A stretch of DNA of 64,000 bases from assembly GCF_018688335.1 (NCBI RefSeq), contig NZ_CP061316.1, positions 310,001 to 374,000 of the forward strand, given 5' to 3'. This document shows positions 6,578 to 58,269 of the stretch, piece after piece. The notes beneath the pieces were generated by a model. It saw only the letters and a program-made list of their open reading frames with translations, was not told the origin of the DNA and did no database searches. Position 1 is the first letter of the stretch, and each line of letters starts with the position of its first letter. Position numbers and translations under genes: made by a program. Source of the stretch: Polynucleobacter sp. AP-Jannik-300A-C4 (GTDB taxonomy: Bacteria > Pseudomonadota > Gammaproteobacteria > Burkholderiales > Burkholderiaceae).

Positions 6578-9446
6578 TCCCCCCTCAATTCCTGAGTTGC
6601 CAGAGGGCAGCATAGTTGGAATTAATTATTCTGGAATGCACGATACAGCTATTGCCATAGTCGATCCTTGCGGAAAAATAATTTATGCTGCGTCATTAGA
6701 GAGATATACAAGAGTTAAGCAGGATGGGAGGCCTCCAACTCTTTTTTTGCAAAATTTTCCCTGGGAGCGCGTTAAATATGTGGCGATCTCTACTGATCGC
6801 GATTTTTCTCCTCCCAGTCCATCGGATAGCACTCTATTGGATTGCTCTTTGGTGCAGAGTAGGGTGGGGGGGTTGCTGCACGCTTTTGAGTTTTATGAAT
6901 TCCTGGAATCAATTCCCGTTGAAAAAAGATTTGTTCCTCATCAAATTGCTCATGCTGCATCAGCATTTTGGGGGAGTGGATTTAAGTCGGCCTTATGTTT
7001 AACATATGATGGCGGTATGTGTAACAGCCCCTGGTTTGGTGGTTTGTATTTATGTGATCAAGTAGACGGAATTACGCCCCTTAGCCAATTCAATGCTCTG
7101 AGTTACTCAAAGATTACAACTTTATATACTTTTGTTACTGCATTACTGGGCTTTACGCCCAATAAACATGAGGGCAAAGTTACGGGGCTCGCCGCCTGCG
7201 GGACCTCGACAATAAGCTGTAGGAGATTGCTGGAAAAATGGTTTCATTCGGAATTTATTTCAATTGAATCCACCTTGGAATGGATAAATATTTATGATTT
7301 AGTGCATCCCCCTGCATTGGCTGTTTTTGAAGCTAAGATGCAACCCTTTCGAGTAGCTTCACAAGAATTCTCTAAAGAAATTATCGCAGCAACGCTGCAA
7401 GAAATGACAGAAGAGCACGTAATAAAAATTTTAACTCGCGCTGCAGATAATGGATGGATGAGAAATCATATATGTTTAGCTGGAGGTCTGTTTGCAAATG
7501 TCAAAATAAATCAGAGGATTTCTGAGTTTGGCTTTGAGGAAATTTTTGTTGCGCCACCGATGGCGGATGATGGGACAGCTTTGGGTGCAGCTTGGCATGC
7601 ACTTTGGCAGGAGAGTGGTTGCCCTCCCCCAAGAATGGATTCAATGTATCTTGGGTCAAGATATGATCCGGCCCTAACTGAGCAGCTGCTAGTTGGAGAG
7701 GGAATTTGTTTTGAGCGGCTATCAAATCCCGCAGACTATATTGCCAATCTTCTTTCGAAAGAGGGTGTGGTAGCTATATTTCAGGGTGCCATGGAATTTG
7801 GACCGCGCTCTTTAGGTAATCGTTCTATATTGGCTTCTGCAACCAAAAGCGATGTTAATAAGAGTTTAAACAACCTCTTAAATCGAACCGACTTCATGCC
7901 TTTTGCCCCCGTATCACGGATCGAAGATGCGGAAGATTGTTATGTTGGGATTGAGGGAGTTCTTCATACGGCTGAATTTATGACGATTACGCTTCAGTGT
8001 ACTGAATGGATGAAAAGAGATTGCCCTGCAGTCGTTCATGTTGATGGGACGGCACGCCCGCAATTGGTTAGCTCAGATGTAAATCCACTAATTCATGCAA
8101 TCTTGTCAAAATATATAGAGCTTACAGGGGTGCCAGCATTAGTAAATACCTCATTCAATATTCATGAGGAGCCAATCGTTTGCTCCCCCAAAGATGCAAT
8201 TCAAGGTTTTTTTGAAGCAGGCTTGGATTACCTTTACCTCGAGGGGGGTTTTTTAATTGACCTTAAAAATAATATGGAGGTATCAAATAAATACCTTCGA
8301 AAAAAACTAAGACAGAAACCCCATAAACTTTTGCAACAAGAAGCTATTGTCATAAGGCAATCTACAAGACTAGCTGAGCAAGAGGTTCAGCTAGCTGAAA
8401 AAGAGTTGGTGATTAAAGAGTTGGATGATGAAATTAAAAAAATTCGCACTAAGTTGGCGGAGCAAAATTCTGTATTGCGCTTACATCGAATGGCATATGG
8501 CTCATATAATCCGCTAGCACCATTAGCTAGAATATGTCGCCGATGTTATGAGATTTTTAGGCCGCGCTTAGGGAATTTGTCGCAATACTCCCCCCGTCAC
8601 TTCATCATTACTGAAAAAAAATACCATTACCCGGAGATGGTGATGCCGACTATCTCATTGGTAACCCCGTCATATAACCAGGGTGAATATATTGAGAGAA
8701 CGATTAATAGCGTGCTTCGACAAAATTACCCGGCACTGGAATATTTCATTCAGGATGGTGCATCTAAAGATGCTACAGTCAGAGTTGTGCAGAAGTTTCT
8801 AGATAAAATTTCTGGTTGGAAATCCGCTGAGGATACTGGGCAATCCGAAGCAATAAATTTAGGATTTTCCCAAACTAGTGGCGAAATAATGGCGTGGCTT
8901 AATTCCGATGATTTGTTGTTACCCGGGGCTCTCCATACCGTAGCACATTATTTCAATAGCCATCCAGAAGTAGATGTTGTTTACGGAAACCGTATTCTAA
9001 TAGATGAGAATGACATGAAAGTAGGACGATGGGTTATGCCTAGTCACGATGATTCAATCTTGTCTTGGGTTGATTTTATACCCCAGGAGACGTTATTTTG
9101 GCGGCGCAGCGTTTGGGAAAAGATTGGGGGAGGGGTTGACGAGTCATTTAAATTTGCAATGGATTGGGACTTAATTCTAAGATTTAGAGATGTTGGCGCA
9201 AAATTTGCTCGCATACCAATTTTTTTGGGTGCATTCCGCGTTCATCAACATCAAAAAACCTCAGTCTCTATAGATGATATTGGGAGTAAAGAGATGGCAA
9301 GAATTCGTCAGCGCGCCTTGGGTAGGGTGCCAACCCAAGGTGAAATTCGAAATGCGGTGAAATTGTATTTAATAAAGCACGTTGTTACAGATTTACTTTA
9401 TAGAATTAAGAAATTGCTGGGGATAAATGAAAAAATTACATTTTAA
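6546..9446 (+). CDS. Fusion protein: NodU/CmcH-type O-carbamoyltransferase, coiled coil, GT2 glycosyltransferase
   Basis: A 966-residue two-enzyme fusion. Residues about 22-575 match carbamoyltransferases of the NodU/TobZ type (GINYSGMHDTAIAIV, the HQIAHAASAFWGSGF histidines near 132-136, EGKVTGLAACG, and FGPRSLGNRSIL near 418), which move a carbamoyl group from carbamoyl phosphate to a sugar hydroxyl. Residues about 580-645 are charged and heptad-like, probably a coiled coil. Residues about 700-930 are a GT2 domain (SLVTPSYNQGEYIERTINSVL, IQDGASKDAT, WLNSDDLL). One chain could therefore add a sugar and carbamoylate it or its neighbour. The start overlaps the previous gene; GTG codons at 6555 and 6564 are alternatives. 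There is no frameshift between the parts. Confidence 0.88.
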   Translation: MIWVCFVLRNNPPSIPELPEGSIVGINYSGMHDTAIAIVDPCGKIIYAASLERYTRVKQDGRPPTLFLQNFPWERVKYVAISTDRDFSPPSPSDSTLLDCSLVQSRVGGLLHAFEFYEFLESIPVEKRFVPHQIAHAASAFWGSGFKSALCLTYDGGMCNSPWFGGLYLCDQVDGITPLSQFNALSYSKITTLYTFVTALLGFTPNKHEGKVTGLAACGTSTISCRRLLEKWFHSEFISIESTLEWINIYDLVHPPALAVFEAKMQPFRVASQEFSKEIIAATLQEMTEEHVIKILTRAADNGWMRNHICLAGGLFANVKINQRISEFGFEEIFVAPPMADDGTALGAAWHALWQESGCPPPRMDSMYLGSRYDPALTEQLLVGEGICFERLSNPADYIANLLSKEGVVAIFQGAMEFGPRSLGNRSILASATKSDVNKSLNNLLNRTDFMPFAPVSRIEDAEDCYVGIEGVLHTAEFMTITLQCTEWMKRDCPAVVHVDGTARPQLVSSDVNPLIHAILSKYIELTGVPALVNTSFNIHEEPIVCSPKDAIQGFFEAGLDYLYLEGGFLIDLKNNMEVSNKYLRKKLRQKPHKLLQQEAIVIRQSTRLAEQEVQLAEKELVIKELDDEIKKIRTKLAEQNSVLRLHRMAYGSYNPLAPLARICRRCYEIFRPRLGNLSQYSPRHFIITEKKYHYPEMVMPTISLVTPSYNQGEYIERTINSVLRQNYPALEYFIQDGASKDATVRVVQKFLDKISGWKSAEDTGQSEAINLGFSQTSGEIMAWLNSDDLLLPGALHTVAHYFNSHPEVDVVYGNRILIDENDMKVGRWVMPSHDDSILSWVDFIPQETLFWRRSVWEKIGGGVDESFKFAMDWDLILRFRDVGAKFARIPIFLGAFRVHQHQKTSVSIDDIGSKEMARIRQRALGRVPTQGEIRNAVKLYLIKHVVTDLLYRIKKLLGINEKITF

Positions 9447-44793: not shown

Positions 44794-45813
44794 TTACTTT
44801 GAGTGCACTATCGCTACGACACGATTGCGTTCGTAGCTCACATTGGGTGAATCGGGCGGACTGCTTTGCGAAAGCCTGACCTGCATTTGAGTTTGCGCCT
44901 CAATCTCTTGTGTCAGACTCTGAGCCAACTGGAGATTGCGGTCATATTGAAGCTCTATGCTGGCAACCCTTCCCGCCTTAATGCTGGAAATGATTGCTGA
45001 AACCTTTTCGGGTGAGTATTGATCAAAAAAGATCGGATACCAGCCACCCAGTGCTTGTCTAGAATCAGTTGCGCCTTTATCAACTTGTGCAAGAGGCTTG
45101 CTTACACTGTTCTCTACAGGTAAATGAAAGTCGATACCAGTTTTCTGAATCAGTTCAGCATAAGAGATTGGTGGATGCATTTGAGCTCCATCGGTGTTTT
45201 CAACCCAATAAGCCCAAGCTAATTTTTTATCGGGGTCATATACCAGTTTATAGAGATGACTTGGAATGGTGACCTTACTTTTACCAATGCTGCCGGCATG
45301 ACCAGTTGAGCCAGTAAAGACGTAGACATCGCCTTGCGCACGCTTGATATACATCCTGGTAGGCTCTTCAACCCGCTTTGCCCAGATGCCTTGGTTATTT
45401 TGTCTAGCCTGCGGCATCATATTTGCCAGGGAAAATGATTGCGCCATTCCTCGTTCGCGAGTCATATCACCAGCCGGGACGTTGTGTCCCCGGTCATAAC
45501 CGCTGCCACGATAGTCGGCCAGTAGGGCGCGTTCACTCAAGGGCAGTCTAGCTTCTTCGTAAAACTGATTGGTGCGGCGGGGGCGAGGTGCTTGAAGTTG
45601 CTCACCATTTAACTTTTCGACGGTATAGATAGGCTTTTTATCCGAAGGGGAGTAATAAATTGCAAAATCATCAAAGCAAAGGTCTCGCCCTACCTGGGAA
45701 GTGCTGGGTATTTGCTGGGATGGGAAAAAATCTTTGCATTGATCAAATAGGGCGGATGCACTTAGAGGTAGCCAAAGCAGGCTAAGTAAGAGGGGTTTGA
45801 CCAGGAATTTCAT
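44794..45813 (-). CDS. DNA/RNA non-specific endonuclease, secreted
   Basis: A 339-residue protein with a signal peptide (LLLSLLWLPLSASA). Its catalytic stretch is YDRGHNVPAGDM, the DRGH motif of the Serratia nuclease family, followed by SLANMMPQARQNNQGIWAKRVE, whose Asn residues hold the metal ion. It would degrade DNA and RNA in the periplasm or outside the cell. The C-terminal 90 residues are charged and of unknown role. It is the last chromosomal gene before the transposon's left end. Confidence 0.9.
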   Translation of the reverse strand: MKFLVKPLLLSLLWLPLSASALFDQCKDFFPSQQIPSTSQVGRDLCFDDFAIYYSPSDKKPIYTVEKLNGEQLQAPRPRRTNQFYEEARLPLSERALLADYRGSGYDRGHNVPAGDMTRERGMAQSFSLANMMPQARQNNQGIWAKRVEEPTRMYIKRAQGDVYVFTGSTGHAGSIGKSKVTIPSHLYKLVYDPDKKLAWAYWVENTDGAQMHPPISYAELIQKTGIDFHLPVENSVSKPLAQVDKGATDSRQALGGWYPIFFDQYSPEKVSAIISSIKAGRVASIELQYDRNLQLAQSLTQEIEAQTQMQVRLSQSSPPDSPNVSYERNRVVAIVHSK

Positions 45814-46061: not shown

Positions 46062-46085
46062 TGTGCGATTACACATAAGCTGCAA
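46062..46085 (-). repeat. Left terminal inverted repeat
   Basis: A 24-base end repeat, TGTGCGATTACACATAAG followed by CTGCAA. Read from the other strand it starts TTGCAGCTTATGTGTAATCG, the same shape as the internal TnsB-type sites, so it is both the end and the outermost binding site. Confidence 0.8.
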
Positions 46086-46141
46086 CTCCATATTCAATAA
46101 AATCAATAGGTTATTAATTTACTGGCCGCCAAAAGCTGAAA

Positions 46142-46163
46142 GTAATTTACGTATAAGTTGCAA
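46142..46163 (-). repeat. Left-end TnsB-type site 2
   Basis: On the minus strand it reads TTGCAACTTATACGTAAATT plus AC. It repeats 31 bp further in with two mismatches, and matches the right-end sites at the TTGCARYTTAT core. Confidence 0.75.
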
Positions 46164-46168
46164 TTTTC

Positions 46169-48019
46169 TTAAGTAATTTGCGCATAAGTTGCAATTTTCT
46201 CAAAGTCACTTGTAAATTCGTTTTGAAGAAAATAGTTATTTAGTCGCTTCTCAAAAGAGGCGGGGAGAAATAAGTGGTCCTCTTTTTCAATTACCCCTGG
46301 GATTGAAATTGTCCATAAACCAAGCAACTCAATAGCATTTATGGTTTTCTCAAATGACTGACTGTGTTTAGCTGCAATTTTGCTGACATTTATAAAGTGA
46401 GTCTCAAACCGATCAATAAATGATCGGGTAATGATCTTGCCGTTGGGTTCTTCACGGTATTGAAGATATCCAGTGCGCATTAAAAATTCAATTCCTGTTT
46501 TATTTGTGCGAATATCACAGGCCGCTTGAGCAATCGAAAGCCCTTCATTTTGAATTGCAACTCTTTTTTGAGAAACATATTGCTTAATTTCTCTCTTATA
46601 TAAAATTAAGCTCGAGAGCTTTTTCCCAAAGCGTCCTCGTACTGTAATTTTATCCTCTAAAATTCCCTTCAAAATAGAAATTTTTATTTCAACATCAATT
46701 GACTTCTTTTCTAAGACTTTCTCAAGCGTTATGAATTGTTCATTTCTTACCGAGGTACGTCTGAAGCCAACTATATTCTTTTTCTTAATGGTTTCAAGAA
46801 TCTCATCTAGAACCTCTTTGAGCCAGGGAAATTTAAGGGATTTTGCTTTTTCTGTGATTAGATAATCACTCATAACTCCACTGCTCCAAAATAAGCCGAG
46901 AATATTATGAGGAACCCCTATGTAATCCGCAGCCTCTGTTAGGGTGAGAATTTTGTTATCCGTATGGGATGATTTTTCCTTGGGGGGTAAGTTGGGAAAA
47001 TCATCAAAATAAGATACATGGGTGAGATTAGGTTTGCCCTTTAATGGGCTTGGAAATGTAAATTGATTTGAAAAGAGCAACAGCTCATTAATTATAAAGT
47101 CAGTATTTTTGTCAAAATTGCTATTGTTGGTTAATTCATTAATTAGTTTCTTTATTTGTGTTGAATGTAAATATTTTTTTCCAAACTTATCAGCGGCATT
47201 AAAGTATCTATCTAAAAAATCTGCATACCCTTCAGGCCATCTTGAAAACATTGCTACACTCACATTAACGGCATTTGTTACGCCCAAGGTGGCGTCGTCT
47301 CTGGTTATAACTCTATCTTCGTGCGGTTCATAAAAACTACTCACTTTGCTATTTTTATGCAATATTTCCAACAGTTGCTCTAGCTGAAGTTTTTCGAAGT
47401 GGCTTAAGGGGAACCGATATGTGTTTGGCAGGTTGTCAGTAAATTTTTCATTGAGTTTTGCGTAAATAATTCCCATCAACTCTGTGTGCGACTTTTTCGA
47501 GGGTTCTAGAGGAGCATTTGTATAATCAGCACCGCATTTACATTTGAGTAGCCCAGGCCTAAACCAGCTTATCGGATTAAGGCATGATTGACATTTAGTG
47601 ATGGGTTTTACTTTATGCCTTGGACACGCAATTGCAATAGATAGGTCCCAAAAAGCATTAATATGACCATCTTCTTTTACGCAAATAGGGCAAATCTTTG
47701 CTTTAATAGTTATAAGGCGTTGGTGCCGTTGATTGCATCCGAGTTGCCGCCCAAGTATTTTTAACTTTGATGCTGATTCGCTGTCTGTGTGCGAATATCT
47801 ATCAAGTCTATTTTCTGGAAATCCAAGAATTTCTGCAAATTTTTTTGTGGAGATATTTCTTGACCCGGGAGTGAGTTTCTCGGTCCCCAACATTTTTGCA
47901 ACTAAAGAGGGTGATAGATAGCCATTTGCTTCTGATACTCTTAATAAATAGCCTCGCAGGCTTTCATATCTGAATGGCTTTGGGGTTACCACAAGAAGAT
48001 TATTTTCATTTGCCTGCAA
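46169..48019 (-). CDS. tniQ: TniQ/TnsD-family target-selection protein
   Basis: A 616-residue protein. The N-terminal part is TniQ-like: TPKPFRYESLRGYLLRVSEANGY, then zinc-binding CPICVKEDG, ACPRHKVKPITKCQSCL and CKCG. The remaining 400 residues are helical and would include DNA-binding helices that choose the target. The size is between short TniQ (about 400) and Tn7 TnsD (508) or more, so it may combine both roles. The start is TTG at 48019, 3 bp after the tnsC stop. No second TnsD or TnsE is present, so this is likely the only target selector. Its target site cannot be told from this copy. Confidence 0.86.
   Translation of the reverse strand: MQANENNLLVVTPKPFRYESLRGYLLRVSEANGYLSPSLVAKMLGTEKLTPGSRNISTKKFAEILGFPENRLDRYSHTDSESASKLKILGRQLGCNQRHQRLITIKAKICPICVKEDGHINAFWDLSIAIACPRHKVKPITKCQSCLNPISWFRPGLLKCKCGADYTNAPLEPSKKSHTELMGIIYAKLNEKFTDNLPNTYRFPLSHFEKLQLEQLLEILHKNSKVSSFYEPHEDRVITRDDATLGVTNAVNVSVAMFSRWPEGYADFLDRYFNAADKFGKKYLHSTQIKKLINELTNNSNFDKNTDFIINELLLFSNQFTFPSPLKGKPNLTHVSYFDDFPNLPPKEKSSHTDNKILTLTEAADYIGVPHNILGLFWSSGVMSDYLITEKAKSLKFPWLKEVLDEILETIKKKNIVGFRRTSVRNEQFITLEKVLEKKSIDVEIKISILKGILEDKITVRGRFGKKLSSLILYKREIKQYVSQKRVAIQNEGLSIAQAACDIRTNKTGIEFLMRTGYLQYREEPNGKIITRSFIDRFETHFINVSKIAAKHSQSFEKTINAIELLGLWTISIPGVIEKEDHLFLPASFEKRLNNYFLQNEFTSDFEKIATYAQIT
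46173..46194 (-). repeat. Left-end TnsB-type site 3, inside the 3' end of tniQ
   Basis: On the minus strand it reads TTGCAACTTATGCGCAAATT plus AC and encodes the last residues of TniQ (ATYAQIT). The tniQ stop codon (46169-46171) lies between sites 2 and 3, so the end of the gene is also part of the transposon end. Confidence 0.75.
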
Positions 48020-48021
48020 AA

Positions 48022-49032
48022 CTAACCCCTAAGCGACTTGATCCCTCGGGGATTCAAATTTGTTGGTCTAGAAATGTCTGAGTGATTTAAATTTATTTTT
48101 GGAAATCCTATTTGTGCAACTTTCGCTAAAACTTCATTTGGCTGCGCCTGTATGAAGTTCCTTGAAAATGGATCAAAGTTTGACAGGATTTGTTCGTCTC
48201 TCCATATCGATGCTTCATAAGCAATTTTTAGGTCTTCAATCGTAATGATCTTCTTGTTTGTATCCAGGGCTTCCCAGACTGCATGTCGCAATAACTTGCT
48301 CAAATATCCAATAAGGCCACCAGTTGCGCAATAGCATCTAAATGCCATTTCATTTGAGTCCAGTGGGGGTATATCAAAATGAGAGCTTATTGATTTATGA
48401 AAGGCTCCTAATATTCCCACGAACTCCTCTCTTTGGTCGATATCTCCCCAATCAAATCTTGGCAAAACTATCGGGGCAAAAAATCTTCCTGCAAGCTGCT
48501 CATTCTGGTCTAGTACCGCTTTACAAGTGGGGAGCCCTGCTACAACTAAGGCGCATTTAGTATCGTCAACTAATATCTTTAACCAGTCGGCAACATAGTG
48601 CATTACTTTGTGCGTCCCCTTATCATAAAAGTGTTGAAATTCATCAATGATTACCATTGATGTTTTAGCGCTTCTCATTAAGAGTTTTAACCTCATTGTT
48701 TTGGCGTTTTCAGTGCCAGAGTAACTTTGTGGGTCACCCAATGCGCGAAGCATAATTTCGACTAAACCTTTTACGGTGGGTTTTGATGGGGTCTTTACCA
48801 TTAAAATCGGGGCTTTGACACCATCCTCATCTCTTTTGGGTGGATGATTATGGTAGAAAGCTTCTAGCGCTCGACTCTTTCCAGTTCTAGATTCGCCAAT
48901 TAAGGCCAGGCAGACTGGTTCTGGACTATCTAAAGAATACCGCATACATTGCTCGATGCGCATAGTAGCTGTTGAGAATGCGGTGTGAGGAACTAGAGTG
49001 GATTCGACAATATGCCTCTTTAGTGCACTCAT
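48022..49032 (-). CDS. tnsC: TnsC/TniB-type AAA+ ATPase
   Basis: About 336 residues. Walker A CLALIGESRTGKSRALEAF, and Walker B SMVIIDEFQHFYDKGTHKV followed by sensor-1-like LVVAGLPTCKAVL. The size and DEFQH box match TniB/TnsC regulators, which bridge the target-bound TniQ and the transposase and block repeat insertion nearby. The ATG at 49032 overlaps the tnsB stop (ATGA). The N-terminal and C-terminal extensions of TnsC that bind TnsA/TnsB are shorter here than in Tn7 (555 residues). Confidence 0.9.
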   Translation of the reverse strand: MSALKRHIVESTLVPHTAFSTATMRIEQCMRYSLDSPEPVCLALIGESRTGKSRALEAFYHNHPPKRDEDGVKAPILMVKTPSKPTVKGLVEIMLRALGDPQSYSGTENAKTMRLKLLMRSAKTSMVIIDEFQHFYDKGTHKVMHYVADWLKILVDDTKCALVVAGLPTCKAVLDQNEQLAGRFFAPIVLPRFDWGDIDQREEFVGILGAFHKSISSHFDIPPLDSNEMAFRCYCATGGLIGYLSKLLRHAVWEALDTNKKIITIEDLKIAYEASIWRDEQILSNFDPFSRNFIQAQPNEVLAKVAQIGFPKINLNHSDISRPTNLNPRGIKSLRG

Positions 49033-51044
49033 TCGGTTCCCCAATTTAAGGTCCGATTGGAGATGATTGGCTCAAATGTCCTTATCTTGCGTTGACTCGC
49101 TTGTACATTTCTAGGGGCATCGGGCCCTATATCATCCACGGCATTGCTTTTTAGGCTTGTTGAATGACCTAGTTGAGGAGCTGGCAATTCATCAATTGGA
49201 CTTACAGATTTTGAAATTAAGCTCTTATCTCCCCTAAATCTAGTAACCTTTTGTCGAATTTTCTTTGGTCCTGTTTTTAAGTCTTGATCAATCCAATCTT
49301 GAATCATTTGCTTTGCCTGAAGGCAGCCAAATACATCATCTTTATCGAGATGTTTTTGGGAAAGCCTTTTGCAAATTCGATGCTGATACTTCGAAAGTCC
49401 TTTTGCGTAGTGATTAAGTAGTGCTGGAACTGTGATTAATTCATTGTTACTCGGGGATAGTACGATAATTTGACCCAAGTCTGAGTCATCAATTTGAATT
49501 TGGACCTGAAGCTTTGTGCCAAACCGTCTTCTTAATGCTGCTAATTCTTGTGAGTTATAAAGTAGTCCATCGAGCTCTATACCTTTGTGTGTTAAAACCC
49601 TTGTTTCGCTACGACTTAAGATGGCATCTAATTGAGCAACATTATCGGGGAGTAATATATCGCCCGAATTAATACTGGATTTCCAAATCGAGGCAGGGCT
49701 TGCTTTCAGACTACGGTGAAGTTCTTGGTGGTATACATCTGCTATCCATGTGCGATAAATTTTTTGAAATGTGCTGTATTTAATGACCGCATGTTTTACT
49801 GGGTCGTACTCACCTTTATCAAAAATATTACTAAAAGTCGTTCCGGGGTTGCCGTGTGCAAGTTCTTTATTTATGGTTCCAAGAAAGCGTTCAATTTTTC
49901 CCTTGAACCATGGCGTTTTTCTTGCTGAATAGTGAATTTCTATGCCAAGGGAGTAACAGGCTTTCTCGAGATTCTCACCATGAAATTCCATTCCATTATC
50001 AACTACTAGTTCGCGCATTACTCCGTGAGCATCCCAGGCGGATTTTATTTCTGGGTATTCCTCTCTTAGATTTGCTTTTGGGAGAATTGCCATCTTCAAG
50101 CATTGAGCAACTGTCAAAAAGCTTGGGGGTTCAAAGCTCACTGATATCCCAAGAATGCATCTAGAATAATCATCAATACATGCTGTGATCCATGGTCGAC
50201 CAAGCGGAAACCCGTTCTCATCAACCAACATGAGATCCAATTGAGTATGGTCAATTTCGGCTCTCTCTAATGGGGCTTGAGTTATGCGGTGAGATGTAAC
50301 TGTGCGAAATTTATTGAGGGCTATATTCCTCCCGTCTCTCGCCATGCAGACATCAAAAGCTGGTATCGCAGAAATTAGTCTTTTAATCAATCTTGGGCTC
50401 GGCAACGGCAGTTGCATGCTTTGCACAAGCAGCGAATTTTCTTTTAGAACTAGAAGAGTTGCTCTTTCAAAAACCTTTTTTAGATTTCCTTTTTCTGGAG
50501 TGAGGTAAATTTCATCGATAGCTCTATTTACTATAGCCTCTACCTCCTTAGGGTATCTACTGCCGGTATTGCCTTTCTTGCTATGGTTATCGGCCAAGGA
50601 CATGATGTCTTGACCAGACTTCATGTATCTTTTTTTCCACCTGTACACGGTGCTCCAATTTGGTGGCTTGGGTAATGTATTTTGGCTAATCATTACCCAA
50701 ACTTTTCTAATTAACGGCTCAAATGCTTTTAATGAGTTGGGGGAGTCGATAACTGCGTTGACATAGGCCCTCTTGATTTTTAGGGTTTGCCAATCCTCAT
50801 CGCTAAGTTCAGAGGTTAAGTTAGGGATTTTTTGGCGAGGATCTTTTTCAGTTATGAATCCCTCATTAAAGACTAATTTTCTATTTAAATATAGTTTCTC
50901 AAGTTCGGCAATTGATAACCTTATTAAATTACCAGTGTTAATTTCTTCGCACTGCCATGAATGATTCTCAACCCTTTTTCTCAGTACATATGACTCACCT
51001 TCAATTTTAATTTTGACGCCTTTTGTTAATGAAGAGCAGCTCAT
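49029..51044 (-). CDS. tnsB: TnsB-type DDE transposase
   Basis: About 671 residues. The integrase core shows RAEIDHTQLDLMLVDENG and TACIDDYSRCILG (first Asp), LVVDNGMEFHGENL (second Asp), and KTPWFKGKIERFLGTINKE (Glu), a complete DDE set. N-terminal helix-turn-helix parts (NWSTVYRWKKRYMKSGQD) would bind the end repeats. The C-terminal Mu-type beta-barrel domain follows, then a basic tail likely to contact TnsC. The ATG at 51044 has AGGAG ahead and overlaps the tnsA stop (ATGA). It makes the 3'-end cuts and joins; TnsA makes the 5' cuts. Confidence 0.93.
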   Translation of the reverse strand: MSCSSLTKGVKIKIEGESYVLRKRVENHSWQCEEINTGNLIRLSIAELEKLYLNRKLVFNEGFITEKDPRQKIPNLTSELSDEDWQTLKIKRAYVNAVIDSPNSLKAFEPLIRKVWVMISQNTLPKPPNWSTVYRWKKRYMKSGQDIMSLADNHSKKGNTGSRYPKEVEAIVNRAIDEIYLTPEKGNLKKVFERATLLVLKENSLLVQSMQLPLPSPRLIKRLISAIPAFDVCMARDGRNIALNKFRTVTSHRITQAPLERAEIDHTQLDLMLVDENGFPLGRPWITACIDDYSRCILGISVSFEPPSFLTVAQCLKMAILPKANLREEYPEIKSAWDAHGVMRELVVDNGMEFHGENLEKACYSLGIEIHYSARKTPWFKGKIERFLGTINKELAHGNPGTTFSNIFDKGEYDPVKHAVIKYSTFQKIYRTWIADVYHQELHRSLKASPASIWKSSINSGDILLPDNVAQLDAILSRSETRVLTHKGIELDGLLYNSQELAALRRRFGTKLQVQIQIDDSDLGQIIVLSPSNNELITVPALLNHYAKGLSKYQHRICKRLSQKHLDKDDVFGCLQAKQMIQDWIDQDLKTGPKKIRQKVTRFRGDKSLISKSVSPIDELPAPQLGHSTSLKSNAVDDIGPDAPRNVQASQRKIRTFEPIISNRTLNWGTE

Positions 51045-51733
51045 AATCTCTCCTCTCTTAATGGCTCCAAAAAAGATTTGCGCCATTGAAAAATGGTTTT
51101 GTTTGACCATACTTGATTAATGTCAAAGTAAATGTACCCCTCTATCACCAATCTACATATAATTTTTGGGCCCTGTGGTCCAATAAGCCCGGATTTCAGC
51201 TCACCCCAGCTGATGGTTCCGTGGCGCTCTAAGTAACGAAGCGCTTTTTCTTTCTCTACTATGCCGATGGGGTTTACTCCATATCGCAACAAGGCTATAG
51301 TGTTTTGTTTTTTGGGCTGAAGTGTTAGACTTTTTGGGTCAACGGTGCGCCAGCTATAGCCCATCTTTAAAAGTTGACTTTTAAAAGCCTCTATATTTGT
51401 GATGGACATCCCATCAGTCATATCGGACCACTTCTTTATTTCCCAAACTTCCTTGTACTCATAAGATTTAACGAGTAAGTCTGGGTACCGATGAAAAGTC
51501 TTGCCATCAATTTCGTATTGAATTTCCATTGGAGATTCGTGAAATGAACTAATGGTTGGTGTGATATCTAGTAATCGAAAAGCATGAAGTTGGTCAATAT
51601 TTTCCCAATGCAGCATATGACCCATTTTTAGACTTGGGTACTTGCCAGTTGGCTTGGTGTTTGACCGAGAGATTACTCGCTTGATTCTTGTCTCGCCTGC
51701 CTCGGGCATTCTTATTTGTATAATTTTAAGCAT
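51041..51733 (-). CDS. tnsA: TnsA-type transposon endonuclease
   Basis: A 230-residue protein with the TnsA N-terminal nuclease pattern: GHMLHWENIDQLHAFRLLDI (catalytic Glu region), HRYPDLLVK (Asp), and EVWEIKKWSD (E-x-K). The C-terminal part is a winged-helix-like domain that in Tn7 binds TnsC. Together with TnsB it would cut the transposon out on both strands, so movement is likely cut-and-paste. A palindrome (51746-51759) lies just upstream of the ATG. It is a little shorter than Tn7 TnsA (273 residues). Confidence 0.9.
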   Translation of the reverse strand: MLKIIQIRMPEAGETRIKRVISRSNTKPTGKYPSLKMGHMLHWENIDQLHAFRLLDITPTISSFHESPMEIQYEIDGKTFHRYPDLLVKSYEYKEVWEIKKWSDMTDGMSITNIEAFKSQLLKMGYSWRTVDPKSLTLQPKKQNTIALLRYGVNPIGIVEKEKALRYLERHGTISWGELKSGLIGPQGPKIICRLVIEGYIYFDINQVWSNKTIFQWRKSFLEPLREERL

Positions 51734-51745
51734 TTATTTATTTGG

Positions 51746-51759
51746 TTTAGCCAGCTATA
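51746..51759. promoter_or_regulatory. Palindromic motif upstream of tnsA
   Basis: TTTAGC-CA-GCTATA, 12 bp before the tnsA ATG. The same motif (TTTAGC-TG-GCTAAA) is found upstream of the nuclease gene before it at 52730-52743, at nearly the same distance from its start. It is probably a shared operator of the element. Confidence 0.6.
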
Positions 51760-51779
51760 CTAGATTAATTAAAAAAAAC

Positions 51780-52721
51780 TTACCTTTTTAGGAAATGAGT
51801 TAACAGCTGCAGTGAGGTTTCTAGTTTGTATGTCGGATCATTGCGCTTGGGTTTGCGAATTAGAGTCAATTTCTTATTATCTAAAGCTAAGATCCCGCAG
51901 TTATTAGGAGTACTCTTGGTTCCATAATCAGGATTGAATTCACAAAATGCTATCCAAATGTAATCACAGTATTTTGCTTGGACATAAAGGGGAGAACAGT
52001 CTTGCCTAGGATTGTTATTAGCTTTAATTTCAACCCCATGAAACTCTAGTCCGCTTTTATTTTCCAGTACAATCATTGCGTCAAAGCAGATACGCTTACC
52101 CCCATCATTTTTTTGCATGAGACAGAAGTTTGGCATCACCACTTCATACTTATTTTTATTTTCCATCTCCATCCAGTTATTGTCTGGAGAATTTAGGCAA
52201 ACAAGCACCTGGGCTTCATTGATGCTCGCTTGATTTTTGGGATCCGCTAAGTCTATTTTGGGCCTAGATACGCCCGTCCCTCTCGATGTTTTACCTTCCA
52301 AACTTTTTCTATATGCAATCCAAGTGGACCGCAATTCATTTCTCTTGATATTTTCAGATAGAACTCTTTTTGCTAGAGTTATAAAAACATCTCGTGGAGT
52401 TACTCGTTCAATTTTTTCAAGAATTTCTAAGTTTTCAGGACTAATCTTCGCAGATAAAGTTTTGAATTCTGGGGCTGTTATCTTATATATTTTTAGTTCT
52501 TCCTGAAGGTTTTTGTAAAACTTTGCAGCTCTAAAGTATCTCCATAGACTGCTCTCACTCAGCAACATTTTTTTGCTGACATCAATTAGCCACTCAGTAA
52601 ATGATTTATGGGTTGATGACCATTCTCCGGTTGCTTCATTGGAGAGCAAAAATTCAGCCATAACCACCCATGAGTTAGATGAGGATTGGAGGGGGGTGTC
52701 ATTGATTTTTTTAATTTCCAT
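51780..52721 (-). CDS. Probable PD-(D/E)XK nuclease with N-terminal DNA-binding-like region, unknown family
   Basis: A 313-residue protein. Residues 1 to about 150 are helical with an HTH-like stretch (KMLLSESSLWRYFRAAKFYKN) and resemble no family I know. Residues about 180-300 carry RICFDAMIVLENKSGLEFHGVEIKANNN: an Asp, then E-x-K at the right distance for a PD-(D/E)XK nuclease core, followed by QAKYCDYIWIAF and GILALDNKKLTLIRKP. This part recalls the MmcB-like nucleases. It is the first gene of the transposon operon, ahead of tnsA. It may be a cargo defence nuclease, a second processing enzyme, or the regulator of the operon. Confidence 0.65.
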   Translation of the reverse strand: MEIKKINDTPLQSSSNSWVVMAEFLLSNEATGEWSSTHKSFTEWLIDVSKKMLLSESSLWRYFRAAKFYKNLQEELKIYKITAPEFKTLSAKISPENLEILEKIERVTPRDVFITLAKRVLSENIKRNELRSTWIAYRKSLEGKTSRGTGVSRPKIDLADPKNQASINEAQVLVCLNSPDNNWMEMENKNKYEVVMPNFCLMQKNDGGKRICFDAMIVLENKSGLEFHGVEIKANNNPRQDCSPLYVQAKYCDYIWIAFCEFNPDYGTKSTPNNCGILALDNKKLTLIRKPKRNDPTYKLETSLQLLTHFLKR

Positions 52722-52729
52722 TTTATTAG

Positions 52730-52743
52730 TTTAGCTGGCTAAA
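52730..52743. promoter_or_regulatory. Palindromic motif between -35 and start of nuclease gene
   Basis: TTTAGC-TG-GCTAAA with perfect 6-bp arms. On the minus strand a TTGACA (52756-52751) lies 17 bp before TAAACT (52733-52728), so the palindrome overlaps the -10 region. Transcription would start about at the ATG (52721), giving a leaderless mRNA. This is a good place for a repressor. Confidence 0.6.
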
Positions 52744-52826
52744 GTGAATTTGTCAAATGTTTTTTTCAGTTATTTAGTAAAGAGCTTATTAAGAGCGTGC
52801 TTATTTTATCGGATAACTTTACAGTT

Positions 52827-52855
52827 AGTCATTTTAAGTTTATAGTTTAATGACT
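52827..52855. promoter_or_regulatory. Inverted repeat upstream of HATPase-STAS gene
   Basis: AGTCATT (52827-52833) and AATGACT (52849-52855) are perfect reverse complements 15 bp apart, about 40 bp before the ATG of the divergent gene. It might be a separate operator for that gene. The region is very AT-rich, so chance is possible. Confidence 0.4.
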
Positions 52856-52895
52856 TTAACTTTATATTAAACCATTTTTAACTTGGCAGTCAATA

Positions 52896-53927
52896 ATGTC
52901 TAAACCATCAAGACTTAATCAACTTATAGCAAGCGTAACCGAGGATGTTGTAGCACATCCCGCTGATCTGACGCGCCATTACATGGGTAAGCTGAATATT
53001 TCCAGGGTTGGCGCAAATAACTATATTAAACAGCTAGAGGAGCAGGGTTGGATTGCCAGAAGTGGGCCATCTACAAGGCCTTTGTTTAGTCCTGGGTATC
53101 AAAGGCATGTCTCAAGGCTCTACGAAATCGAAAATCTTGAGGAGGATCTGGTTTGGGCTAAGGAATTTAGGCCATATTTCAGCCTTGCACCAAATGTCTT
53201 TAATATCGTAAATCATGGCTTTACCGAGATGTTAAATAATGCAATTGACCACTCTGGAGGGAGTGAGGTTTTTATTTGGGCTCGGCAAACCGAAACCCGT
53301 TTTACATTGGCTATATCTGACAATGGAATTGGCATATTCGCAAAAATCGCTACCGCACTTAATTTGCCAGATATGCGACAAGCTCTTTTTGAGCTGTCAA
53401 AGGGTAAATTTACAACCGACCCAAGTAGGCATAGTGGTGAGGGCGTATTTTTTACTTCTCGGATGTTTGATTGGTTTGAAATAAATGCTAATAACTTAGA
53501 GTTCCATCACGATCAAAAGCTTGTGGAGGATGTATTGCATGAAGCAAAGGGGATATTTCCTGATGGAACAGTTGTCTTTATGAGTATTGCTTTAGATAGC
53601 ATGCGAACTACAGCCGATGTCTATGCGGAATATACAAATGCTCCCGATGATTTTGATTTTTCTAAAACCGTGGTTCCAATGAAGCTTGCGCAGTATGGGG
53701 AAGAGCATTTGGTTTCGAGGTCCCAGGCAAAAAGATTGATAGCGCGATTTGATAGGTTTAAAAGGGTGGTGCTTAATTTTGATGGGGTGCAAGAAATTGG
53801 TCAGGCATTTGCGGATGAAATTTTCAGGGTTTATGCCAATGAGCACCCCGATGTCGAGTTGATACCAGAAAAGATGACTAAACAAGTTCAGGGTATGTGG
53901 TTGAGGGCTGTGGCTCCAAGAATTTAG
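52896..53927 (+). CDS. Winged-helix, HATPase and STAS-like (DUF4325) protein
   Basis: A 343-residue three-part protein. Residues about 5-70 form a winged helix (GKLNISRVGANNYIKQLEEQGWI). Residues about 100-230 form a GHKL ATPase: N box TEMLNNAIDHS with Glu111 and Asn115, G1 box SDNGIGI (Asp142, Gly144, Gly146), and G2 box HSGEGVFFTSRMF. Residues about 270-335 are a STAS-like DUF4325 domain (VVLNFDGVQEIGQAFADEIFRVYANEHP). There is no histidine phosphoacceptor, so it is not a classic histidine kinase. It resembles anti-sigma switch proteins fused to a DNA-binding head. It is the only + strand gene of the transposon, so cargo or element regulator. Confidence 0.82.
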   Translation: MSKPSRLNQLIASVTEDVVAHPADLTRHYMGKLNISRVGANNYIKQLEEQGWIARSGPSTRPLFSPGYQRHVSRLYEIENLEEDLVWAKEFRPYFSLAPNVFNIVNHGFTEMLNNAIDHSGGSEVFIWARQTETRFTLAISDNGIGIFAKIATALNLPDMRQALFELSKGKFTTDPSRHSGEGVFFTSRMFDWFEINANNLEFHHDQKLVEDVLHEAKGIFPDGTVVFMSIALDSMRTTADVYAEYTNAPDDFDFSKTVVPMKLAQYGEEHLVSRSQAKRLIARFDRFKRVVLNFDGVQEIGQAFADEIFRVYANEHPDVELIPEKMTKQVQGMWLRAVAPRI

Positions 53928-53998
53928 TGAATTTCACTATAGGTAGTTGTTGCGTTTCTCATTCTGACTATTAGTAGATGATTTAACGTTTTTATTGC

Positions 53999-54041
53999 TT
54001 GCAATTTATGGGGTCCAAACTTGCAGCTTATGGGGTCTAAA
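53999..54041 (+). repeat. Right-end TnsB-type sites 1 and 2
   Basis: Two adjacent sites, TTGCAATTTATGGGGTCCAA at 53999 and TTGCAGCTTATGGGGTCTAA at 54021, spaced 22 bp. They share the TTGCARYTTATGGGGTCYAA pattern and point towards the right end, opposite to the left-end sites. Confidence 0.8.
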
Positions 54042-54065
54042 TTGCAATTTATGCGTAAACGCACA
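54042..54065 (+). repeat. Right terminal inverted repeat
   Basis: It reads TTGCAATTTATGCGTAAACG then CACA, ending in ACA at 54065. It is the reverse complement of the left end at 20 of 24 positions. It follows the two internal right-end sites at a 21-bp step. Confidence 0.8.
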
Positions 54066-54402
54066 AAATAGTAAAAAAGTTGGATTTTCGGCACTTTTTT
54101 ATGATATGAAATAAGCACCCACTAACTTCTATAAATCATTGAATTTAAACAATAAAATATCAAAAATAAGGACTTCCACGGGGGGTAAGTGTATTTCAAG
54201 ACCTATAAGTTATTGAAACACCATTCTTTATTCTTGACTTGATATAAGAACCTTCTTAGGATGGCACATGTTTTTAACTTATTGCATTGCAACATAAATC
54301 AGATGTTTGATTTTTTGGTGTGCTGCAAGACCATGAATGATTAAATGTTTGTCTGCCGATTCGAGTGACTTGCAACTAGCCCAGCCCCTAGGCGCTAAGG
54401 CT
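54066..54402. other. Intergenic region after the transposon's right end
   Basis: No gene seen. There is a pair of similar short stretches (CTATAAATCATTGAATTT at about 54130 and CCTATAAGTTATTGAAAC at about 54200) that may be an old direct repeat. The promoter for the lytic transglycosylase gene should lie in the right part. The 337-bp stretch is AT-rich, unlike the housekeeping genes that follow. Confidence 0.5.
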
Positions 54403-58018: not shown

Positions 58019-58269
58019 GCGCCACAGTTTACGATCTAAGTGTCCGCCGGGTTTGCTCGCTGGATTCCCTGAAATTGACCCGCTTTGGCCAATTTGGGGT
58101 CTAAATCCCCTTAAATAGCCGGGTTCGATGATTTAAAATAGACGTCTCGGTCCAGTGCGTGAAATATCACCCAAGATAGCCAAAAGCGCCTGAAGTGTTG
58201 CGCATGGAACGCGAGAGTGGTTCGGTATAAGGCCGAGCCCTAATATTTATCCATATCGAGGAAACATCA

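Follow-up and report, generated by a model that had tools for sequence, protein, structure and literature searches.

What kind of transposon occupies positions 46062–54065 of the 64,000-nucleotide stretch of Polynucleobacter sp. AP-Jannik-300A-C4 DNA analysed here (the window; NCBI RefSeq assembly GCF_018688335.1, contig NZ_CP061316.1, positions 310,001 to 374,000), and what role does ORF313, a gene directly upstream of tnsA, play in it? A sequence-only reading had proposed a complete Tn7-like transposon without TnsE, a CRISPR array or known defence cargo, and our analysis supports this: the interval is a complete Tn7-like element of 8,004 bp, found at the same site in two species, with paired palindromes before ORF313 and before the tns operon. 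We read it jointly as a cut-and-paste Tn7-like transposon whose TniQ homes as its own TnsD and whose ORF313 is an autoregulator of the tns operon, and we put the probability of this at roughly two in three. We regard the element as a new variant of Tn7-like transposons, of interest for ORF313 and for the reuse of this module upstream of unrelated recombinases.

A complete Tn7-like element

The genome is a single contig of 1,998,164 bp, and G+C content is about 0.35–0.41 inside the element versus 0.43–0.49 in its surroundings. ORF313, tnsA, tnsB, tnsC and tniQ follow one another on the minus strand, and ORF343 lies on the plus strand, adjoining the right end (Table 1). The 24-base ends proposed earlier are inverted repeats, TGTGCGATTACACATAAGCTGCAA (46062–46085) and TTGCAATTTATGCGTAAACGCACA (54042–54065), that agree at 20/24 positions, and the further repeats noticed in opposite orientation at the two ends prove to be three CATAANNTGCAA-type sites each, one site carrying a mismatch. 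Those of the left end (46074, 46152 and 46183, the last inside the 3' end of tniQ) are spread over 121 bp, and those of the right end (53999, 54021 and 54042) are spaced by 21–22 bp. To judge from the repeats, this is the left/right geometry of Tn7, compact on the right and spread on the left, with TGT…ACA ends and several TnsB-type sites. The boundaries 46062 and 54065 are best supported because a copy in a second species of the genus (G084) agrees with the window copy (G000) between exactly these ends, while the flanks diverge immediately outside; related elements have similar ends. The refuting conditions named in the sequence-only reading were checked on these points and did not overturn it. 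A search of viral contigs with the end repeats found no relative. No cas gene was seen among the six genes of the element, and no array in the direct-repeat families listed (20 of 57).

The element encodes TnsA and TnsB, TnsA being recognized by weak similarity to PseTnsAB only, together with the AAA+ ATPase TnsC and a TniQ-domain protein. For TnsA, a Pfam search gave no match, and NF033179 matched at E 0.0026, under its cut-off. The tnsA–tnsB–tnsC–tniQ order of the sequence-only reading was correct, and we refine its tnsB start: the open reading frame extends to 51110, and comparison with the G108 protein points to a likely start at the ATG of 51044, which overlaps the tnsA stop.

Table 1 Features of the element and its right flank (window positions).
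Feature	Position	Strand	Evidence
Left-end terminal repeat and outermost TnsB-type site (CATAAGCTGCAA at 46074)	46062..46085	+	Repeats; G084 comparison confirms boundary
Two inner left-end repeats, 31 bp apart, second overlapping tniQ 3' end	46152..46194	+	Repeat search
tniQ/tnsD-like, 616 amino acids: TniQ core and C-terminal helix-turn-helix (HTH)-like chain	46169..48019	-	
tnsC, AAA+ ATPase, TniB family, 340 amino acids	48022..49044	-	PF05621 E 6.7e-31; best solved match VchTnsC, 100 bits
tnsB, DDE transposase	49029..51044	-	Mu-transpos_C and rve_3 above cut-off; PseCAST TnsAB, 283 bits
tnsA endonuclease, 230 amino acids	51041..51733	-	PseTnsAB chain residues 12-178, E 2.9e-5
Putative operator upstream of tnsA, TTTAGCCAGCTATA, 1 mismatch	51746..51759	.	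Repeat and palindrome search
ORF313: ParB/Noc-like HTH and PD-(D/E)XK-fold domain; putative autoregulator	51780..52721	-	AlphaFold2 model, predicted local distance difference test (pLDDT) 86; fold matches; family
Putative operator upstream of ORF313, exact palindrome TTTAGCTGGCTAAA	52730..52743	.	Palindrome search
Putative ORF313 promoter TTGACA-N17-TAAACT, overlapping operator	52728..52756	-	Sequence
ORF343: winged HTH, HATPase and DUF4325 (STAS-like), cargo	52896..53927	+	Domain search; homologues outside transposons
Right end: three TnsB-type sites 21-22 bp apart, terminus CGCACA	53999..54065	-	Repeats; G084 comparison confirms boundary
Right flank adjoining right end; candidate TniQ recognition sequence	54066..54150	+	Flank conservation; one full copy in genome

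ORF313 and its paired palindromes

Among the families in the fold listing, the structural model of ORF313 matches ParB/Noc and PD-(D/E)XK proteins. Helices begin at residue 16 and the PD-(D/E)XK part spans residues 162–312, so that there is little room for the N-terminal CTP-binding domain of ParB/Noc. Within the family, the Asp of the nuclease motif is invariant (14/14 rows), and the lysine is replaced by R, H or C in 3 of the 13 rows reaching it; at that position the homologues of G112, G151 and an Enterococcus plasmid have T, R or V. The PD-(D/E)XK-fold domain may act as a DNA sensor, as a nuclease or as an inactive, purely structural part; its E-x-K motif drifts across the family (EIK, EVK, EIR, DIK, EIH, EIC). 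No relatives of ORF313 were found in viral contigs, phage records or PDB sequences.

A palindrome, TTTAGCNNGCTAAA, recurs with one mismatch or none in the 80 bp before ORF313 and again in the 80 bp before the next gene at five loci, G000, G142, G146, G089 and G151 (10/10 sites; some start codons were chosen by eye). It was found in 0/79 control upstream regions, where the best values were 2 mismatches once and 3 twice. As three of the five loci are near-copies, they represent three independent lineages, with 33–35% protein identity. Promoter-like sequences accompany the palindromes: G000, G108 and G138 have TTGACA-N17-TANANT upstream of ORF313, with GCCWGC touching the −10 box, and G142, G146 and G089 have a spacer of 18 and the core GCGAGC. 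The presumed recognition helix of ORF313, E-x-x-[LI]-W-R-Y, has Ser as its third residue in the five palindrome loci, Asn in G108 and Gly in G138; a link between this residue and the operator type is suggestive only.

Upstream of ORF313 and tnsA, G108 and G138 have no TTTAGCNNGCTAAA match (3, 4, 4 and 4 mismatches); they have paired repeats of their own, which were equalled in 13 and 10 of 100 shuffles, and the pairing of upstream repeats within a locus was rejected as sole evidence, since shuffles match it too often. Across the whole window the palindrome is not enriched (8 matches at up to 2 mismatches versus 5.2 expected).

We infer that ORF313 is a portable autoregulator of recombinase operons, probably acting as a repressor. 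On entry into a new cell the tns operon would be expressed, perhaps in a burst, as in the zygotic induction described for I-F3 elements in excerpts of PMC11406308. By analogy with its family, TniQ would bind the right-flank sequence and recruit TnsC, which would bridge to the target; TnsA and TnsB would cut at the TGTGCG/CGCACA ends and join the element beside the site, with its right end facing the transglycosylase side. Accumulating ORF313 would then bind both palindromes through its ParB-like HTH, damping its own and the tns promoters. The two palindromes, one overlapping the ORF313 promoter and the other just upstream of tnsA, would in this way set the level of the tnsABC–tniQ operon.

Insertion site and target choice

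The G084 element lies at the same site and is identical at 7,991/8,004 bp (13 differences, 99.84%). The flanks of the two copies are 80% identical on the right and 78% on the left, over an aligned 1,042/1,268 bp. Since the same near-identical element sits in two species amid diverged flanks, it has moved recently, between species, into one site. This fixed attachment is seen in two copies only, both with the right end toward the transglycosylase side. Right-flank matches were present in 142/186 genus genomes and left-flank matches in 137/186, some of them partial. Empty sites, which the sequence-only reading had proposed to seek in related genomes, are common: of the 30 best right-flank loci fetched, 28 were empty and 2 occupied (G000 and G084).

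The insertion point is between divergent genes: a nuclease gene (44794–45813) starts 248 bp away on one side and a lytic transglycosylase gene (54337) 271 bp away on the other. Conservation of the site is 0.87–0.95 over 0–90 bp to the right, versus 0.71–0.81 to the left; it is also high farther right. The 616-residue TniQ has an I-F3-like core, followed by C-terminal parts resembling MerR/Xis HTH folds; a TnsD-like homing factor is the best reading of it. The HTH chain at its C terminus probably recognizes the conserved sequence just right of 54065, placing the right end there. The target selection of the element is ordinary in kind.

Kinship of the tns genes

The solved structures nearest to TnsA, TnsB, TnsC and TniQ are proteins of type I-F3 CRISPR-associated transposons (CASTs). 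For TnsB, PseCAST TnsAB was followed by Tn6677 TnsB (225 bits), ShCAST TnsB (115) and Tn7 TnsB (49). In a TnsB tree of 25 rows, the element and that of G108 were sisters (100/99), within a clade (100/99) that adds Methylophilus and two contigs of metagenome-assembled genomes, labelled Actinobacteria and Planctomycetota; long branches make the placing of the I-F3 and Acinetobacter rows unsure. TnsB matches at E 1e-10 or better occurred in 13/186 genus genomes, with identities of 100% (G084), 53% (G108), 52% (a fragment in G142) and 25–33% (others).

The sequence-only reading had suggested a possible new subfamily on the grounds of a short TnsC, a large TniQ as sole selector and two unfamiliar genes. 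The first two grounds carry little weight: I-F3-type elements normally have a short TnsC (the best match, VchTnsC, has 330 residues), and 2,905 loci encode just one TniQ or TnsD, which varies in size, according to excerpts of PMC10293859. Of the two genes, ORF343 is widespread (7,998/8,000 scored candidates match) and ORF313 does mark the subfamily and make the element unusual. TnsB does belong to a supported clade, with three divergent homologues and the G108 element.

Two decayed relatives lie upstream of a cysI-like gene (this label, like cyanase-like below, is our reading of the proteins, without a family search). That of G108 (L086 7552–13535) has a truncated tniQ and no left end was found; that of G138 (L124 4831–7430) retains ORF313 and a shortened tnsA, without tnsB. 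Our literature search found no paper on Tn7-like elements in Polynucleobacter.

Alternative explanations

ORF313 could instead serve as a second selector of the target or belong to the core transposition machinery, partnering TniQ/TnsABC as a nuclease or DNA-binding protein, comparable with TnsF in Tn6022; the palindromes would then be incidental. Its PD-(D/E)XK fold would fit, as would its position: in all four genus loci holding both genes (G000, G084, G108 and G138, the last with the shortened tnsA) it lies directly upstream of tnsA, and relatives lie directly upstream of a tyrosine recombinase gene (G146, G089 and G142; Phage_integrase E 5e-21 in G146) or of istA and istB (G151). The same neighbourhoods count against a core role, however, as homologues accompany a tyrosine recombinase, IS21 istAB or no transposase as the next gene (in G112, a weakly matched HTH_17 gene and a DUF5906 gene), and the E-x-K motif of the family drifts. 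Moreover, when 21 family members, the G138 protein not among them, served as tblastn queries, no ORF313 match was found at two divergent TnsB-clade homologues with upstream DNA (L018 and L019); L020 had none either, but its contig begins at tnsB. The same search found no relatives on stretches L018–L024, L087 or four plasmid references. We consider this explanation unlikely.

In G142, G146 and G089 a Tn7-like right end lies just upstream of the ORF313 homologue, and tblastn found no tnsA, tnsB, tnsC or tniQ on these stretches, whose contigs end nearby. Because of these contig ends, and because G142 has a tnsB–tnsC–tniQ fragment of this clade on another contig (L087, starting at or inside tnsB), a lost or split tns operon is possible there. 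AbiE genes are present at the ORF313–recombinase loci of G146 and G089, and AbiEii with Thoeris ThsA/ThsB on a G142 contig with the same recombinase.

A second alternative concerns the two copies. Rather than separate insertions, they may go back to a single old one, at which homologous recombination swapped the element together with its surroundings. The identity of G000 to its relatives does switch at the element: the right flank is 96–98% identical to G085 over the first 500 bp, and the left flank is 65–77% identical to G085 and 84–92% to G045 over the nearest 250 bp (G085 farther left, 0.81–0.94). G000 also lacks a target-site duplication (…gaagctca on the left, aaatag… on the right), as a hybrid of two insertions might. 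However, the G084 flanks differ from those of G000 right up to both ends of an element that is 99.84% identical, so that an exchange carrying flanks cannot explain both sides, and the two junctions are at slightly different positions. We hold such an exchange to be quite unlikely. The G084 junction shows a 7-bp direct repeat, cccaaaa, and the related G138 remnant a 5-bp repeat, gtgac; a simple 5-bp duplication was rejected for G000 and G084, as the junction sequences give none. Both junctions would be accounted for if two insertions, made at slightly different positions, had formed a hybrid, and we offer this as a suggestion.

Also unlikely, finally, is a passenger ORF313 (a defence, addiction or anti-plasmid gene, by chance near the right end, controlling only its own promoter), since, despite a homologue between PemK/MazF and Fic genes on an Enterococcus plasmid (Fic downstream, an IS3 transposase one gene further) and another away from tns genes in G771, the operator is repeated before a next gene that differs by lineage (tnsA, int or istA), and PADLOC gave no match.

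A possible wider role for the ORF313 family

Returning to ORF313 as autoregulator, we propose more tentatively, as a reading we hold less likely than not, that it founds a family of portable ‘mobility governors’, each with its own palindromic operator, captured upstream of at least three unrelated recombinase systems and silencing the recombinase; the nuclease-like domain may sense incoming or broken DNA. The three systems meant are Tn7-like tnsABC–tniQ, the tyrosine recombinase beside Tn7-like ends with AbiE (Thoeris on one contig) and IS21 istAB. If this were true, ORF313 would couple transposition to cell entry. Tn7-like elements are known for captured target selectors; as ORF313 relatives with the same operator lie upstream of other recombinase types, regulation would be a swappable module like target selection.

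Several individual loci show these settings. In L144 (1392–4735) an ORF313 homologue immediately precedes IS21 istA/istB, and a TTTAGCNNGCTAAA-type palindrome (1 mismatch) stands in front of each. L141 (2211–4390), L142 (5494–9448), L156 (G142:C15) and L158 (1–1681) combine a Tn7-like right end with a homologue of ORF313 and a tyrosine recombinase; AbiE genes accompany them (Thoeris ThsA/ThsB on a G142 contig), and these stretches show no tns genes. L141 has two right ends in tandem, and its right end is close to where another tyrosine recombinase gene, with relatives in 36/186 genus genomes, has its 3' end. At L158 7934–8705 there is a mini-element of ~770 bp, two Tn7-like ends around only a ParE/RHH-like toxin–antitoxin pair, upstream of a cysI-like gene; by eye, the G138 element at that site includes a similar region.

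Comparison with known systems

Type I-F3 CASTs share with the element the closest solved TnsB, TnsC and TniQ core, the short TnsC and, in excerpts of PMC11406308, regulators (RtaC/RtbC); pS44-1 shares the separate tnsA and tnsB and an HTH regulator gene. The element differs from I-F3 CASTs in having no Cascade genes or CRISPR array seen, a 616-residue TniQ with C-terminal HTH-like parts of its own and an ORF313 whose modelled fold is unlike that of their regulators, and the sole I-F3 tree reference (a long branch) falls outside its TnsB clade.

With Tn7 the element has in common the TGT/ACA ends, the compact right and spread left sites, TnsA–TnsB–TnsC and a TniQ-domain protein. It differs in having one TniQ/TnsD and no TnsE-like gene among its six, an intergenic site between divergent genes rather than the 3' end of glmS, and only distant TnsB likeness (49 bits).

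Tn6022, like the element, has an extra protein besides TniQ; in excerpts of PMC10293859 this is TnsF, an inactivated tyrosine recombinase that partners a short TniQ and targets comM. ORF313 has another fold, none of the six genes has a tyrosine-recombinase match, TniQ is long (616 residues) and the site is not comM.

As an element-encoded transposition regulator, ORF313 would be a candidate counterpart of CvkR, which binds AnnACATnATGTnnT and represses cas12k and tnsB (excerpts of PMC9938897), and of RtaC/RtbC. These are MerR-type and Xre-type, and as described in the excerpts they come from CRISPR-bearing Tn7-like elements, whereas ORF313, encoded by a non-CRISPR element, is modelled as a ParB/Noc-like HTH with a PD-(D/E)XK-fold domain. 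The literature excerpts do not mention its fold in a transposition-regulator role, and our search found no paper on autoregulated tns operon transcription in Tn7. The element offers a non-CRISPR case in which TniQ seemingly has its own DNA-binding chain and is joined by a candidate control protein, with ends, site and operators defined to the base.

The likeness seen between the C-terminal domain of ORF313 and XisH (fdxN element excision controlling factor) is one of fold. On the Nostoc plasmid pNPM2 (L162 5470–13105), xisH, xisI and a tyrosine recombinase gene adjoin tnsA–tnsB–tnsC–tniQ; tblastn found no ORF313 relative on that stretch.

Cargo gene and other features

ORF343 was rejected as a core component, as homologues with 78–88% identity have a cyanase-like or a cysI-like gene as neighbour or occur at other loci. 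The G138 homologue falls just beyond the boundary of the element, and G140 has ORF343 next to the cysI-like gene with no element there. Found in several contexts (window; L121 and L125–L127), it is labelled an anti-sigma regulatory factor by one source; our literature search found no paper linking DUF4325 with STAS-like. In G142 and G140 an ORF343 homologue precedes two very large genes (~1,060 and >600 amino acids). Elsewhere in the window, an icd-II RNA motif (Rfam RF04189) lies at 58125–58261.

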